Positions 25,898 to 32,066 of a DNA stretch of 47,253 bases are shown here, piece after piece. This DNA is from Thermosynechococcaceae cyanobacterium MS004 (GTDB lineage: Bacteria > Cyanobacteriota > Cyanobacteriia > Thermosynechococcales > Thermosynechococcaceae), in the NCBI GenBank assembly GCA_022402525.1, contig JAKRSB010000010.1, positions 1 to 47,253 of the forward strand, in the 5' to 3' direction. The stretch's first letter is position 1. Each line of letters begins with the position of its first letter. Under the pieces are notes generated by a model. That model was not told where the DNA came from. It made no database searches and saw only the letters and a program-made list of their open reading frames with translations. The position numbers were made by a program, and so were the translations under genes.

Positions 25898-27121
25898 ATG
25901 CAGTCCGCCCAGCCCCAGACTATCCTCCGCTATCCATCGCCCCTTCAGTGGTTCGCAGACCATTTGGCGCAGGCTCTCCTCCATCTTGGCTATGTAGAAA
26001 ATGAACCTACCCAGAATTCTGCTGTGGATTGGCTGATGCTTCCTGATTTTGTCCTAGACTCACAGCGTCTGGGCACGATCGCCACCCCCTTACCCCTCAA
26101 GCTTGCAGGTCAGGTGCAGGGACAAGGGCTGGAGCGAAGGCAGAGGGGTGACGTTACGGCCGCACTCAAGATTGGGCAACAGCTCATTACACAATTGCTT
26201 ACAAACCTTGAACTTATAAACCTTGAACTTATAAACCTTGAACCTGGCTCAGCGATCGCCCTCAAATTTTCTGCAATTCCCGTTCCTCGCTTTTGGATGC
26301 ATCCCAACGGGTGGCTCTATGCGGAGTTTTCCGATGAATTTTTAAGTCAGTGGCTTCAGTTACTCATGACAGCCTGCCCTCAAGTGTGGTCAGCCAGTAC
26401 CCTTCTATCCCATCAAGACCAGGGCGCTGGGTCGGCGTTTGCTGCTCTAGATTGTGCTGAGCGCGTTCAGCCTGCTCCAGCCATTAGCGATCAGCCAATT
26501 GCCTTTGGGCTACAGTATGCCCATGCCCGCTGCTGTAGCCTACTGCGCCTGGGTCAACAGGCTCGTCTGATTCAGTTTGGCCCTGCGCCAGATCTTACGG
26601 ATAAGCTGGCGCAGGATCTGGCGCAGAACTTGACGCAGGATCTGAAGCAAGATCTGGTGCCAGATTATGGCTGTTTATTTGCGTCCTCAAGCATCCGCCC
26701 CAGCCCCATTCCCTGGCAAACAAAACAGGGAGTTTTGCGCTTACAGACGGCTTCAGAACAGGCATTAATTCGGGCGCTCATGCAGTTCCCGCGATCGCTC
26801 TGTCGTGAGAAGGTGATATATGGAAAACTTGAGGGCCAAGCCGGACAGCAGACTCGGATTCACTGGCCAATTTCTGCCCAAGGCCTTCACCAGCCGCTTC
26901 AGAAGTGGAGTCAGCTTTTTTCAGATTTTTATAGCGAATGCCGCTTCCTGGGTGCAGGTCAATCCGAAGCTCGTCAGCCAGACGCTCATCAGCCAGAAGC
27001 CCATCAGCCAGAAACTATCGCGATCGCCCAGGCTCGTTTAGGGCTAGTGTATATTCTCAGAGCAGCTTTGCGTTTTTTGCTTTTGGATGTTTTAGGAATA
27101 GATGCGCCTCAGGCATTATGA
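25898..27121 (+). CDS. Stand-alone DALR anticodon-binding domain protein
   Basis: A 407-residue protein. YAHARCCSLLR near the middle and the C-terminal helix ARLGLVYILRAALRFLLLDVLGIDAP match the DALR domain of arginyl-tRNA synthetase, but no HIGH or KMSKS site is present, so it cannot charge tRNA. It may bind tRNA or regulate ArgRS; the role is unknown. Three in-frame tandem expansions interrupt it: 15 nt x3 at 26201-26245 (NLELI type), 12 nt x4 at 26609-26656 (AQDL type) and 15 nt x3 at 26972-27016 (HQPEA type). I chose the ATG at 25898 over a TTG at 25880. Its 3' end overlaps the convergent HPr-kinase-like gene by 13 nt. Confidence 0.8.
   Translation: MQSAQPQTILRYPSPLQWFADHLAQALLHLGYVENEPTQNSAVDWLMLPDFVLDSQRLGTIATPLPLKLAGQVQGQGLERRQRGDVTAALKIGQQLITQLLTNLELINLELINLEPGSAIALKFSAIPVPRFWMHPNGWLYAEFSDEFLSQWLQLLMTACPQVWSASTLLSHQDQGAGSAFAALDCAERVQPAPAISDQPIAFGLQYAHARCCSLLRLGQQARLIQFGPAPDLTDKLAQDLAQNLTQDLKQDLVPDYGCLFASSSIRPSPIPWQTKQGVLRLQTASEQALIRALMQFPRSLCREKVIYGKLEGQAGQQTRIHWPISAQGLHQPLQKWSQLFSDFYSECRFLGAGQSEARQPDAHQPEAHQPETIAIAQARLGLVYILRAALRFLLLDVLGIDAPQAL
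26201..26245 (+). repeat. Three 15-nt in-frame units in the DALR gene
   Basis: ATAAACCTTGAACTT-like units add repeated Asn-Leu-Glu-Leu-Ile. Confidence 0.92.
26609..26656 (+). repeat. Four 12-nt in-frame units in the DALR gene
   Basis: GCGCAGGATCTG-like units encode AQDL, AQNL, TQDL and KQDL. Confidence 0.92.
26972..27016 (+). repeat. Three 15-nt in-frame units in the DALR gene
   Basis: CATCAGCCAGAAGCC-like units encode RQPDA, HQPEA and HQPET. Confidence 0.92.
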
Positions 27122-28038
27122 ATGGGGCTATCCCCTATTCCAACCTGCGGAATGTGCGTAGGGGCTTTTCCGTGGGTCAAGTCATCTTCCACAAGCCCTA
27201 CAATCTCCGAAAGAGATTCTAGCCCAGGTCTGCGCCTCAAGCGGAAGGTCATCTGAAGGTTCGCAAGCTCTGCACACTGCTTAAAATGTAGTTTTTTAGC
27301 GCTGGGGTCAATCAAATTCTTGACTGCACGGGACTGCTGAGTAAGCGTCAATAGCGCCTCTGTCAAAGAAAGCGACTGAATCTCATGGCGATCGCCCTTT
27401 GCAAGCAGGTAAATTTTCTGGAGTGGATAGCTTTCTTGAAGCGTTTCGCAGTCAAAGGTTTGAATGCGCTTATGGCTGGTGGCATGGAGGAGCGGTAGCC
27501 CTTCTGCTTCATGTCCTAGCGCCTCTACCGCGTCGGGCAAGAGCTTGAGGATCGGGTAGCTGGGAATAACCCTAGGCTGGCCTTCACTCAGCCGAATCGC
27601 AAGAACATCATCCGTAATGACTGGATACCCGTGCCGTAAAAATGCGGATGCAGTTGTCGATTTACCCGCCCCAGGGTTGCCAATAAAAGCGATCGCGCTG
27701 CCATCAACAATCACTGCGCTGGCGTGGAGTACCAAAAAGCCACGCTGCTGAAGCAGCACCGAAAAAGCCGTCCCCAAAATACAGGAGCTCAGCACCTGCT
27801 CATCCACCCCAGGGCATGGCTCAACAATAATGCGATCCGGCTGAATCCAAAACTGTCCAATCTCAGGCAAACTCCCCTTAAAGGACGCCTCCGAGCCGAA
27901 GGATTTCTCAGCCGCTGCCGCCACTGATCCAACCTGCACCACAACGTCAGGACAGCGATCGCCAAGCTGTGTAGCAGGCTCTAGTAGACAAAACTCAGAC
28001 CCAACTAACAGGCCGTAGGAATTAGAGGCGTACATCAT
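27109..28038 (-). CDS. HPr-kinase-like protein of the lasso peptide cluster
   Basis: P-loop kinase of the HPr kinase/phosphorylase C-terminal fold, 309 residues. The LHAS motif is at 104-107, Walker A GNPGAGKST at 120-128 and the acidic pair D143-D144 in PVITDDVLAIRL. No PTS HPr gene is near; instead it lies downstream of a lasso-type precursor and cyclase. In the paeninodin and related pathways such a kinase phosphorylates the C-terminal residue of the precursor, so the likely substrate is the peptide at 28432-28587. The ATG at 28038 is chosen over a TTG at 28089; a GAGGA lies too close to it to decide firmly. A terminator-like hairpin separates it from the precursor. Confidence 0.8.
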   Translation of the reverse strand: MMYASNSYGLLVGSEFCLLEPATQLGDRCPDVVVQVGSVAAAAEKSFGSEASFKGSLPEIGQFWIQPDRIIVEPCPGVDEQVLSSCILGTAFSVLLQQRGFLVLHASAVIVDGSAIAFIGNPGAGKSTTASAFLRHGYPVITDDVLAIRLSEGQPRVIPSYPILKLLPDAVEALGHEAEGLPLLHATSHKRIQTFDCETLQESYPLQKIYLLAKGDRHEIQSLSLTEALLTLTQQSRAVKNLIDPSAKKLHFKQCAELANLQMTFRLRRRPGLESLSEIVGLVEDDLTHGKAPTHIPQVGIGDSPIHNA

Positions 28039-28105: not shown

Positions 28106-28145
28106 TTCTAAAAACAAAAGATACCCTTGCTGAAAGAGTATCTTT
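28106..28145 (-). terminator. Terminator-like hairpin between RiPP precursor and kinase
   Basis: On the minus strand an 8-bp stem (AAAGATAC with GTATCTTT, 13-nt loop) is followed by a T-rich tail, TTGTTTTTAG. It would end or attenuate the precursor transcript before the kinase. The rest of the 393-nt gap has a second 7-bp hairpin at 28358-28376 and no further ORF. Confidence 0.6.
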
Positions 28146-28431: not shown

Positions 28432-28587
28432 TTAGGTGTTGATGTTAAAAGGGGTAGAACCATCGGAATCTTGAAGAATTCCATTGAAGGTAAAAGAGTC
28501 GTCGGTAGGAGCTTTGCCGAGGAATTGGGTCAAAGCGTCAACGTCACCGTAGGACAAAAGCTTAGGTGCAGTGTACTGAGATTTCAT
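28432..28587 (-). CDS. Lasso-type RiPP precursor peptide
   Basis: A 51-residue peptide in the gap between cyclase and kinase. The leader carries the lasso recognition pattern: Y5, P8, L10, G14 and L19-T20, in a YTAPKLLSYGDVDALT stretch. The rest is acidic and Gly/Asn/Phe-rich, with D29, D30, D40 and D42, and ends in Thr51. If T20 is the usual -2 residue, the core starts at F22 and D29 or D30 would close an 8- or 9-residue ring. If G24 is residue 1, D30 gives a 7-residue ring. GGAG lies 7 nt before the ATG, and a consensus promoter lies about 40 nt upstream. The opposite-strand 74-codon ORF here is a shadow. Confidence 0.85.
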   Translation of the reverse strand: MKSQYTAPKLLSYGDVDALTQFLGKAPTDDSFTFNGILQDSDGSTPFNINT

Positions 28588-28626: not shown

Positions 28627-28656
28627 AATATAATTCAGCGGTCAGGAAAGTGTCAA
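28627..28656 (-). promoter_or_regulatory. Sigma-70-type promoter of the RiPP precursor
   Basis: On the minus strand a perfect -35 TTGACA (28651-28656) is followed, after 18 nt, by TATATT (28627-28632). Transcription would start near 28620, giving a leader of about 30 nt before the precursor ATG. It lets the precursor be made in excess over its enzymes. Confidence 0.75.
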
Positions 28657-28930: not shown

Positions 28931-30943
28931 TCAACATTTCTTAAGTCTTAGCCAAAGAGCTAGGGTAATTACAAACCACAAGGCTCCAATGTTCTCGCCG
29001 CTGTTATTCATAAGGATTCTGTATTGCTCTCTTGCGTGGTCAAGATTTAGATAACCTTCTAATCGATTAAAGTCTTGGTCAGCAATTTCATCTAAAAGCG
29101 GGCGATCATATTTTTGGAGGCCGTGAAAAAAAACGGCTGTGGCGCTGCCTTTACTGCCGCGCCACTGAATATCAGGCGGCAAAATACCGTCCATCCCACG
29201 CCGCAGGATCATTCTGGACCACCCTTGGCTGAGTTTTTGGGAGGCGGGGAGCGCTAAGCAGTATTCAACCAGGCGCTTGTCTAAGAATGGATGGGTTGTT
29301 TCGACGCCATGCACCGCAGACATGGGGCCTACAATTTCAAGGGGCAGCACCATCGTGCCAGAGGTCAGCGTTCTCCATTGAAATTCTCGCTCTGATTGCG
29401 GCGGCGGTAAGTTTGGCTCAAATTCTTGCTGTCTCTGGGGATAGTTGAGCCGTGCTAAAAAGCTGGGATTGAAATAAGGAAATGGGTTTGGAGTGGGCGA
29501 TCGCCGCTGACGTCGTTTTTTGCGAAGCTGACGCAACTGGCGGAGGCCGTCTAATTCCTTGAGGCCAAACTCATACCACAGGCGCTTACGGCTGAACTGA
29601 ACAATGGGACTCAGCTGATCGATTGCTTGAGCAAGGCTGACCCACCGCCGAGCGCGGCCCAACTTTTTTAGCGTTGGGAAGCTATGGAGCCTCACTAAGC
29701 CGCTCACCGTGGTGCCAGCACGCTCATATCTCTGCACAAACAGCGTCGCTTCTTGAATGAGCAATTGCCACTGAAGCGCCTGGGCGGATTCGGTGAGGAG
29801 ATTAAGGCCATGCCCCACCACGGTATCGCCATCAAATCCGCTCATCAGGACGCGCACGCCATTTTCTTGGGCAGACCGATTTACAATCCAGTTGAAGTAG
29901 GCATTGCCAATCAGCGGTTCATCCACTGCACCAAACAGACTCTCCCATTCTGTTAGTGCGCCCAAGACATCCCCACGAATGTCGTGGTGGGTAAAGTGAC
30001 CCTGGGCCAAAACCTTATGGATGAATTCGCTTTCATCACTGGCAGGGACATCGGGATAGGTATGGGAAAAGGTATGAATGGGCGCTTGCTGATGCTTGAG
30101 GCTGAGATACCTTGCGCTACAGGCCACTGAAGAGGAATCTAGACCGCCGCTGAGGTGTGCGCCGACGGGGTAGGCGCTTCTCATGCGGCACTGGACTGCG
30201 CTTAAAAAGATCTCTCGGTATTCTTCGGCGTAGTCTGCGTCGGAGGCGCGGTGAATCTCTCTGGTGGGGTCAAGCTGCCAGTATTGGTACTCTTGAGGAG
30301 CTTCTCCTAGCCGAAGCGTGAGGGCGTGGGCGGGGGGCAAACGCCAGATATTTTGATAGATCGTAATCCGTCGATCATTGACGTTGGCAGCGAGGCAGTC
30401 CGCAATTCTGGTTTCGTTAAGCTGAGGTGAAACTTCTTCTAGGGCAAGGATTGCCTTGATTTCTGTCGCAAAGGCGAAGGCCTGTGATTGAGTGTAGAAG
30501 TAGAACGGCTTGACGCCAAAATGGTCGCGGGCGCAGAAGAGGGTTTGGTTGGGAGCGTCCCAGAGGGCAAAGGCAAAGTCACCTAGTAAATGCTCTGGGC
30601 AGGCTGCACCCCATTGGCGGTAGGCGGCTAGCAGGATATCGCTATCGGTCAGGCGATCGCCAGAATATTGCTGAAGGCCCAGCCGGTCGATGAGTTCGGC
30701 TCGGTTATCGAGGCGCACATCGGCGGTAATGGCGTACTGAAGGGCTGCATCCCAATGGGGTAGCTTTTCCTGGAGAGACTCTGGCGTGGTCCACAGCATT
30801 TGGTGGCCCAGCCCCACAGAACCCTCACACCATAGCCCCTGTCCATCGGGGCCACGATGGGCGATCGCCTCAAGCATTACAGAGAGCTGAGCTTCTCCGA
30901 CAGGCCGCCCATCCTGATATAGAAGTCCTAAAATACCGCTCAT
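28931..30943 (-). CDS. Lasso peptide isopeptide-forming cyclase (asparagine synthetase-like)
   Basis: Asparagine-synthetase-B-like enzyme of 670 residues. In lasso pathways this protein adenylates an Asp or Glu side chain of the core peptide, and the new N terminus attacks it to close the ring. The N-terminal Ntn domain starts MSGILG, so the glutaminase Cys2 is replaced by Ser and no ammonia donor is expected; that argues against true asparagine synthesis. RGPDGQG (30-36) and GDFAFALWD are kept. The pyrophosphatase motif SGGLDSSS is at 265-272. It sits downstream of the B1 and B2 genes and upstream of the precursor, all on the minus strand. Confidence 0.9.
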   Translation of the reverse strand: MSGILGLLYQDGRPVGEAQLSVMLEAIAHRGPDGQGLWCEGSVGLGHQMLWTTPESLQEKLPHWDAALQYAITADVRLDNRAELIDRLGLQQYSGDRLTDSDILLAAYRQWGAACPEHLLGDFAFALWDAPNQTLFCARDHFGVKPFYFYTQSQAFAFATEIKAILALEEVSPQLNETRIADCLAANVNDRRITIYQNIWRLPPAHALTLRLGEAPQEYQYWQLDPTREIHRASDADYAEEYREIFLSAVQCRMRSAYPVGAHLSGGLDSSSVACSARYLSLKHQQAPIHTFSHTYPDVPASDESEFIHKVLAQGHFTHHDIRGDVLGALTEWESLFGAVDEPLIGNAYFNWIVNRSAQENGVRVLMSGFDGDTVVGHGLNLLTESAQALQWQLLIQEATLFVQRYERAGTTVSGLVRLHSFPTLKKLGRARRWVSLAQAIDQLSPIVQFSRKRLWYEFGLKELDGLRQLRQLRKKRRQRRSPTPNPFPYFNPSFLARLNYPQRQQEFEPNLPPPQSEREFQWRTLTSGTMVLPLEIVGPMSAVHGVETTHPFLDKRLVEYCLALPASQKLSQGWSRMILRRGMDGILPPDIQWRGSKGSATAVFFHGLQKYDRPLLDEIADQDFNRLEGYLNLDHAREQYRILMNNSGENIGALWFVITLALWLRLKKC

Positions 30944-31093: not shown

Positions 31094-31540
31094 TTAGATT
31101 GGCAGCGGCGGCAATGCCGTGTACTCAGAGATCTTACTGACCTGTCCCATCACCACATGCCCCTGAAACTCGATCCAGGCATGGGCATCAAGACCCCCAG
31201 AAGCATCTTTGGCGACCCCAATCTTGAACAACGAGGGGCAGTGACGCTGATCCAGTAAGACCTTGGTGGTGAGCGCCCGCGCTAAGCACTTCGCACCGCC
31301 GGGCGTAAACCGAGCGCTGAGGTTGACTGCCCACACAATTTGGCGCACGGTCTGTACGTCTGTTTTTGCAGACAGTACGGCTTTTGCTGGCCGCTGACCG
31401 AGCTTCAGCGAAAGCTTCCAGAGCCGCTCAAAGGGCACCAGCCACAGCCCCAGGCGAATGAGGGTTAGTAAAAGATAGGTTTGAAGCAGAATAATTCGGT
31501 CTGGTGGGCTAAGCTTCCAAAAATTGCGAAGGGGCTTCAT
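31094..31540 (-). CDS. Lasso peptide biosynthesis B2 protein (transglutaminase-like leader peptidase)
   Basis: A 148-residue papain/transglutaminase-fold protein that cuts the leader from the precursor before ring closure. The catalytic Cys is C85 in GGAKCLARAL and the His is H120 in DAHAWIEF; an acidic residue nearby (E124) may complete the triad. The N terminus has a hydrophobic stretch near 16-36 that could form a membrane-associated helix. It lies 52 nt after the B1 gene stop and about 150 nt before the cyclase start, as expected for one transcript. Confidence 0.88.
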   Translation of the reverse strand: MKPLRNFWKLSPPDRIILLQTYLLLTLIRLGLWLVPFERLWKLSLKLGQRPAKAVLSAKTDVQTVRQIVWAVNLSARFTPGGAKCLARALTTKVLLDQRHCPSLFKIGVAKDASGGLDAHAWIEFQGHVVMGQVSKISEYTALPPLPI

Positions 31541-31554
31541 GGGAGTGGGGTTAC

Positions 31555-31610
31555 GCCTTAATCTCTATGCCTTAATCTCTATGTCTTAATCTCTATGCCT
31601 TAATCTCAAT
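31555..31610. repeat. Four 14-nt tandem units
   Basis: GCCTTAATCTCTAT-like units occur between B2 and B1. The last unit overlaps the stop and final codons of B1. Confidence 0.93.
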
Positions 31611-31901
31611 AAGCTGGGCGCTCAATAAGTCAACCAGAAGCACCTGAATATCCTGCTCACAGGTCTGAAGATCTACTTCATATTCTTGCGTAATGGCTTC
31701 GCAAATCTCGCGGACCGATTTTGGGTCTTGAATCAGGAGCCAAACGCTATTGCCAACGGAATTCAGACCGTAGTAGGTGCCCGTTTTTAGGTTGAGAATC
31801 ACAGACTCTCCAGCTAAATCTGACGAGACTTGATCTGGACTGGCAACCACAACCGTTTCTGGGGAAATGACTGGATCTGCGGAAGGTGGCTGCTCATTCA
31901 T
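31593..31901 (-). CDS. PqqD-like RiPP recognition protein (lasso B1)
   Basis: A 102-residue protein of the PqqD/RRE type. The recognisable core is GESVILNLKTGTYYGLNSVGNSVW at about 31-54, a winged-helix start, followed by an amphipathic C-terminal helix pair ending LSAQLIEI. Such proteins bind the Y-P-G-L-T leader of the precursor and bring it to the peptidase. The ATG at 31901 gives the usual length; a TTG at 31943 is possible but adds an unrelated cysteine-rich stretch. It is the first gene of the minus-strand lasso operon, divergent from the TPR gene. Confidence 0.85.
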   Translation of the reverse strand: MNEQPPSADPVISPETVVVASPDQVSSDLAGESVILNLKTGTYYGLNSVGNSVWLLIQDPKSVREICEAITQEYEVDLQTCEQDIQVLLVDLLSAQLIEIKA

Positions 31902-32066
31902 AGGCCAAGGCTGTATACAGAGAGTGCAAAATGTTCTCCTCAATTTAACCTATGTTTTTTACTCCGTCTATGATGTAAATACTGGATAAAGGGCTATAAA
32001 GCATGCTGGAGCTGTAAAAAAATAAGCCTATAGTTTTTTTCTATTTTTCTCCCAAATTTTCCCAAG

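Follow-up and report, generated by a model that had tools for sequence, protein, structure and literature searches.

The window, a 47,253-nt stretch of DNA from Thermosynechococcaceae cyanobacterium MS004, contains a complete lasso-peptide biosynthesis cluster that is encoded on the minus strand and transcribed in the order B1-B2-C-A-K (Table 1). A sequence-only reading of this DNA had placed a 51-codon ORF within a complete RiPP cluster, between a cyclase-like and an HPr kinase-like gene and downstream of B1, B2, and cyclase genes on the same strand; the gene coordinates, the family-model matches, and the repetition of the layout in relatives bear out that placement. The B1, B2, and C genes are adjacent. 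Family models NF033535 and NF033537 identified the cyclase and the leader peptidase, both above cut-off, and B1 was recognized by PF05402.

Table 1. Features of the lasso-peptide cluster, with positions in the window and the basis of each assignment.
Feature	Position	Strand	Basis
K, predicted HprK-like lasso precursor kinase	27109..28038	-	HprK_rel_A E 4.7e-9; BsfK-like catalytic residues; PEPCK/HprK-type fold
Hairpin resembling a terminator (12 pairs, T-rich tail), between A and K	28117..28145	-	Consensus scan only
A, lasso precursor	28432..28587	-	NF033528 43.6 bits, cut-off 33; congener ortholog; register from relatives
Predicted core, residues 22-51	28435..28524	-	
Ser44 codon (core Ser23, DGST), predicted phosphorylation site	28456..28458	-	Ser in 47/49, Thr in 1/49 relatives
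Asp30 codon (core Asp9), predicted ring acceptor, isopeptide to Phe22 N-terminus	28498..28500	-	Asp in 49/49 clade precursors; Asp29 (core 8) is Asn in congener
Predicted leader, residues 1-21	28525..28587	-	
Promoter-like TTGACA-18-TATATT, ~40 nt upstream of precursor start	28627..28656	-	11/12 matches, consensus scan only
C, lasso isopeptide bond-forming cyclase (asparagine-synthetase-like)	28931..30943	-	NF033535 779.5 bits, cut-off 525; Asn_synthase domain
B2, leader peptidase (transglutaminase-like)	31094..31540	-	NF033537 95.4 bits, cut-off 33
B1, PqqD-like leader-binding protein	31593..31901	-	PF05402 69.6 bits; NF033536 76.7 bits, just below cut-off 80

In the cyclase, the nucleotide-binding stretch SGGLDSS is invariant and residue 2 is Ser rather than Cys. 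Cys at this position is the glutaminase nucleophile of asparagine synthetases, and its loss fits a lasso cyclase. The catalytic Cys and His of B2 are invariant in 60 of 60 relatives, and the relatives of B1 with solved structures are lasso B1 proteins, TbiB1 among them. We placed the start of B1 at an internal ATG, the reading frame itself extending to position 31943. Profile search of the genome returned one precursor match and a single lasso B2, and none of the small ORFs listed between cyclase and kinase has a lasso leader. No Rfam family matched inside the cluster, and the neighboring genes looked at included no dedicated exporter. A promoter-like site upstream of the precursor and a hairpin downstream of it would allow the precursor to be made in excess over the enzymes, which we offer as a suggestion only, because these are pattern matches from a scan that gives a similar number of sites when the sequence is shuffled.

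The precursor ORF begins with ATG, is preceded by a Shine–Dalgarno-type GGAG ending 7 nt before the start, in line with the good ribosome site noted in the sequence-only reading, and encodes MKSQYTAPKLLSYGDVDALTQFLGKAPTDDSFTFNGILQDSDGSTPFNINT followed by a stop codon. The leader residues noted in that reading (Y5, P8, L10, G14, L19, and T20) are all present in the translation. In an NCBIfam profile search, the curated model NF033528 (lasso_cyano) matched above its cut-off (E = 2.1e-11). The leader model NF033521, which had been proposed as a check, scored 15.2 bits, below its cut-off of 19, whereas the more specific NF033528 passes.

Relatives of the cluster were found at several depths. NF033528 matched in 18 of 386 genomes surveyed across the phylum, nine of them above cut-off, and a related cyclase is present in 13 of 29 genomes of the order to which the window belongs. 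The family occurs across many cyanobacterial families, commonly with several precursors per cluster. Most of the 79 named loci retrieved together with the cyclase alignment repeat the layout B1-B2-C-A-K with one to several precursor genes, and dozens of genomes show the C-A-K arrangement. At the equivalent position, a congener (G394, locus L147) encodes a precursor ortholog, MKAKYITPKVSCYGKVDALTQ-YIGSSPTNDSFVLNGVAVQADGSTGFLNRGG. When the two are aligned optimally with one gap, it is identical to the window precursor at 25 of 51 residues, with pN of 0.35 and pS of 0.73 overall, the synonymous sites being near saturation. The above-cut-off NF033528 match, the same-genus ortholog, and the recurrence of C-A-K argue that the ORF did not arise by chance, and together with the register of its relatives they confirm it as a genuine lasso precursor and a member of the curated family.

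The HprK-like gene, which the sequence-only reading correctly placed beside the ORF and treated as a flank, is predicted to be part of the cluster and to encode a tailoring kinase. Its start was placed at an ATG that agrees with relatives, within a frame extending to 28089. Profile matches to HprK-related kinase families are weak. Because a search of solved structures by sequence also gave only weak HprK matches, the fold had to be compared directly. The predicted model (pLDDT 83) has the PEPCK/HprK fold, with Foldseek matches to both PEPCK and HprK at E < 1e-4 and a Z-score of 16.8 against PEPCK 1aq2. The catalytic residues H, G..G.GKS, and DD are present (HASAVIVDGSAIAFIGNPGAGKSTTASAFLRHGYPVITDD), and their spacing is that of BsfK (PMC10368454). 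A kinase gene accompanies this precursor type at every relative locus that is uncut by a contig end; the three loci without a kinase downstream of such a precursor (L058, L069, and L072) are all cut in this way. PEP carboxykinases, which Foldseek ranks above HprK, align with the full length of the model (m24fec199f926), N-terminal part included, at Z-scores of up to 16.8. In the congener, the kinase gene (L147:6001-6905) is split over two overlapping frames, possibly through a frameshift or a draft-bin assembly error.

The boundary between leader and core follows from the leader register. With the core starting at residue 22, T20 lies at -2 and the YxxPxL block (Y5, P8, and L10) spans -17 to -12, the latter being the register reported for Bsf precursors (PMC10368454). 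The core of the window precursor is therefore predicted to be FLGKAPTDDSFTFNGILQDSDGSTPFNINT, with 30 residues. The leader as previously read stands; our amendment is that the core most likely begins at F22 and that the ring acceptor is most likely Asp30. Two acidic residues, Asp8 and Asp9, lie in the core 7 to 9 interval used by lasso rings. Asp30 is the likely acceptor because, of these two positions, only core 9 is still Asp in the congener, core 8 being Asn; the C-terminal Thr is also gone there, replaced by Gly. The ring Asp is invariant in the precursor alignment of the clade that includes the window, shifted by one residue in a few members, and of 134 distinct cores, 84 have Asp at core 9 and 19 have it at core 8. 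A nine-residue ring from Phe1 to Asp9 is thus predicted for the product, with a calculated lasso mass of 3200.49 Da, or 3280.46 Da with one phosphate. At five other loci with a related cyclase (L049, L050, L091, L096, and L105), the lasso-type precursors have no acid at core 7 to 9, the nearest lying at 10 to 14 or 2 to 6.

The tail of the core holds one more nearly invariant residue. Across 49 distinct precursors of the clade, the position aligned with Ser44 is Ser in 47, Thr in one, and Gln in one; in 60 rounds of tail shuffling and realignment, no Ser column exceeded 20. Because flexible gaps make any-letter columns look conserved in shuffles (a Gly or Pro column averaged 40.5 and reached 47 of 49, inflated by the aligner), we took only the Ser column as evidence. 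The motif [GD]S.[DN] occurs in 31 of 42 deduplicated long tails versus 4.2 expected and a maximum of 12 in shuffles. Like its congener, the window precursor keeps DGS and lacks the Asp that most relatives have two residues after the Ser. The NF033528 model ends at position 35, short of this serine. A C-terminal Ser is found in 31 of 60 short-core and 8 of 74 long-core relatives. Two other hydroxyl residues were put aside as kinase targets: Ser31, in whose place most relatives have Thr, Phe, Leu, or Val, and the nonconserved Thr51 at the C-terminus, which is Gly in the congener. In the kinase tree, kinases of clusters with the long-tail motif account for 29 of 34 rows in one clade, with five label changes versus 24.6 after shuffling, and kinases of clusters with a C-terminal Ser sit elsewhere; since A, C, and K are inherited together, this match is consistent with a changed target and is not independent evidence. 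The clade holding the window kinase, drawn open, has support of 90/94.

Taken as a whole, the locus very likely encodes a lasso precursor with a tailoring kinase; the component genes, the leader register, the conserved Asp of the ring and Ser of the tail, and the intact kinase motif are all evident from sequence. Small size is what would let the ORF pass for a spurious or dead reading frame, a reading that the family match, a pN/pS below one in the ortholog pair, the Shine–Dalgarno sequence, and the intact enzymes leave with a negligible probability. It is also highly unlikely that the product is a linear phosphorylated peptide. Such peptides (LPPs) share a leader-recognition element (RRE) and an HprK kinase with this cluster and have no cyclase or ring (PMC13381572), whereas the window encodes an NF033535 cyclase, a B2 peptidase, and a precursor with an invariant ring Asp. 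Within the lasso reading, a seven-residue ring from Gly24 to Asp30, with the leader cleaved after Leu23, is improbable. Gly does occupy position 24 in 43 of 49 precursors, and rings of the Gly1-Asp7 type are known, huascopeptin being an example cited in a 2026 review of interlocked peptides (PMC13352647); this ring would, however, put Thr at -4 and YxxPxL outside the reported register, and several relatives, including Mesorhizobium and Nostoc cores, have Gly at 22 with an acid nine residues on.

The role of the tail serine is more finely balanced. We lean slightly toward Ser44 as the kinase target. The product probably carries phosphate, and a shift of +79.966 should therefore be allowed for when its mass is sought. 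The contending explanation, which we hold to be less probable but of real weight, is that the precursor is a lasso precursor in which the tail Ser serves structure or processing (as a loop, the neighborhood of a plug, or a trimming site) and the kinase acts elsewhere, for example on Ser31 or Thr51, or not at all. Tails continue for 6 to 26 residues after the Ser, and cores of up to 58 residues occur, exceeding the 33-residue pandonodin that the review names as longest-tailed (PMC13352647), which makes trimming plausible. The Gly or Asp before the Ser and the Asp after it could suit a turn, and the Ser could be kept for threading or later trimming. Against this, Ser44 is the sole conserved hydroxyl residue of the tail, and the kinase is always present. 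Single relatives point both ways. In L067 Thr replaces the tail Ser, a change that BsfK tolerates at its own site (PMC10368454); L153, on a long branch, has Gln at the aligned position and keeps its kinase, which counts against a Ser target.

If phosphorylation at Ser44 is adopted, maturation would proceed as follows. B1 would bind the leader by its YxxPxL block (-17 to -12), and K would phosphorylate the linear precursor, most likely at Ser44 in the tail, before leader removal and ring closure. B2 would then cleave after Gln21, with Thr20 at -2 as the recognition residue, and C would activate Asp30 and join it to the amino group of Phe22, giving a nine-residue ring around the tail. Leader binding, cleavage, cyclization, and the timing of phosphorylation are modeled on characterized relatives; the phosphorylation target is proposed from the present analysis only.

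Related genes also occur in other settings. At three loci (L043, L047, and L048, from G101, G030, and G278), precursors with the same leader and cores of the type QVGGSGGFGTT..., having no acid at core 7 to 9, lie beside B1, B2, and an HprK-like kinase, and no related cyclase was found in the fetched stretches; these may represent cyanobacterial counterparts of the LPP family of linear phosphorylated peptides (PMC13381572). Many Mesorhizobium genomes (L113-L130) have a conserved A-B1-B2-C-K cluster with near-identical, Ser-terminated cores of the form GG.G.TA.DASFPAHTP.G.LTFS. Five contigs labeled archaeal (L090, L093, L099, L104, and L121; Methanothrix, Methanobacteriaceae, Halosimplex, and others) carry related cyclase, B1, and kinase genes, most with leader-type precursors and L090 with the layout B1-B2-C-A-A-A-K, the archaeal assignment being unsure because the records are mostly metagenome bins.

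The earlier proposal of an undescribed cyanobacterial lasso peptide holds for the individual peptide, whose sequence is new among NF033528 relatives, and not for its kind. The kind is known because the NF033528/NF033535 family is curated and a relative from Cyanocohniella sp. LLY has been described in silico (PMC9332814); the LLY precursor shares the ring and the tail motif. The precursor and cyclase of the window exceed both cut-offs, and the B1-B2-C-A-K order recurs in the fetched relatives. The window peptide is ordinary for its family and comes from one compact, single-precursor cluster suitable for expression. In the open-access literature we found no experimentally characterized cyanobacterial lasso peptide, and the word cyanobacteria is absent from the 2026 review (PMC13352647). 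The same literature, outside of which most subscription journals lie, yielded no report of the tail serine, and a conserved tail Ser next to a kinase in a cyanobacterial lasso family appears to be unreported. Achromonodin-1 has a 30-residue core, equal in length to that of the window, and the passages of the review that were consulted mention no kinase or tail phosphoserine for it or for pandonodin (PMC13352647).

Two groups of lasso kinases provide the closest comparisons. In the paeninodin, ThcoK, SyanK, and pseudomycoidin clusters, an HprK-like kinase targets a C-terminal Ser (PMC9266682). These systems resemble the window in having a cyclase, a leader peptidase, and a kinase whose substrate is the linear precursor; they differ in that the window core ends in a nonconserved Thr and its conserved Ser is internal. 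BsfK of the Bradymonas Bsf lasso cluster (PMC10368454) and LppK of the linear LPPs (PMC13381572) target core Ser3. BsfK shares the kinase motif and spacing with the window enzyme, and both BsfK and LppK act on a nonterminal Ser, whereas core residue 3 of the window is Gly. On balance we favor, with reserve, the view that NF033528 lasso peptides form a third phosphorylated class, with an HprK-like kinase acting on a near-invariant tail Ser 6 to 26 residues before the C-terminus. If the tail Ser is the kinase site, it would add a third regiochemistry for lasso kinases, with a predicted mass and a testable role for negative charge inside the tail.
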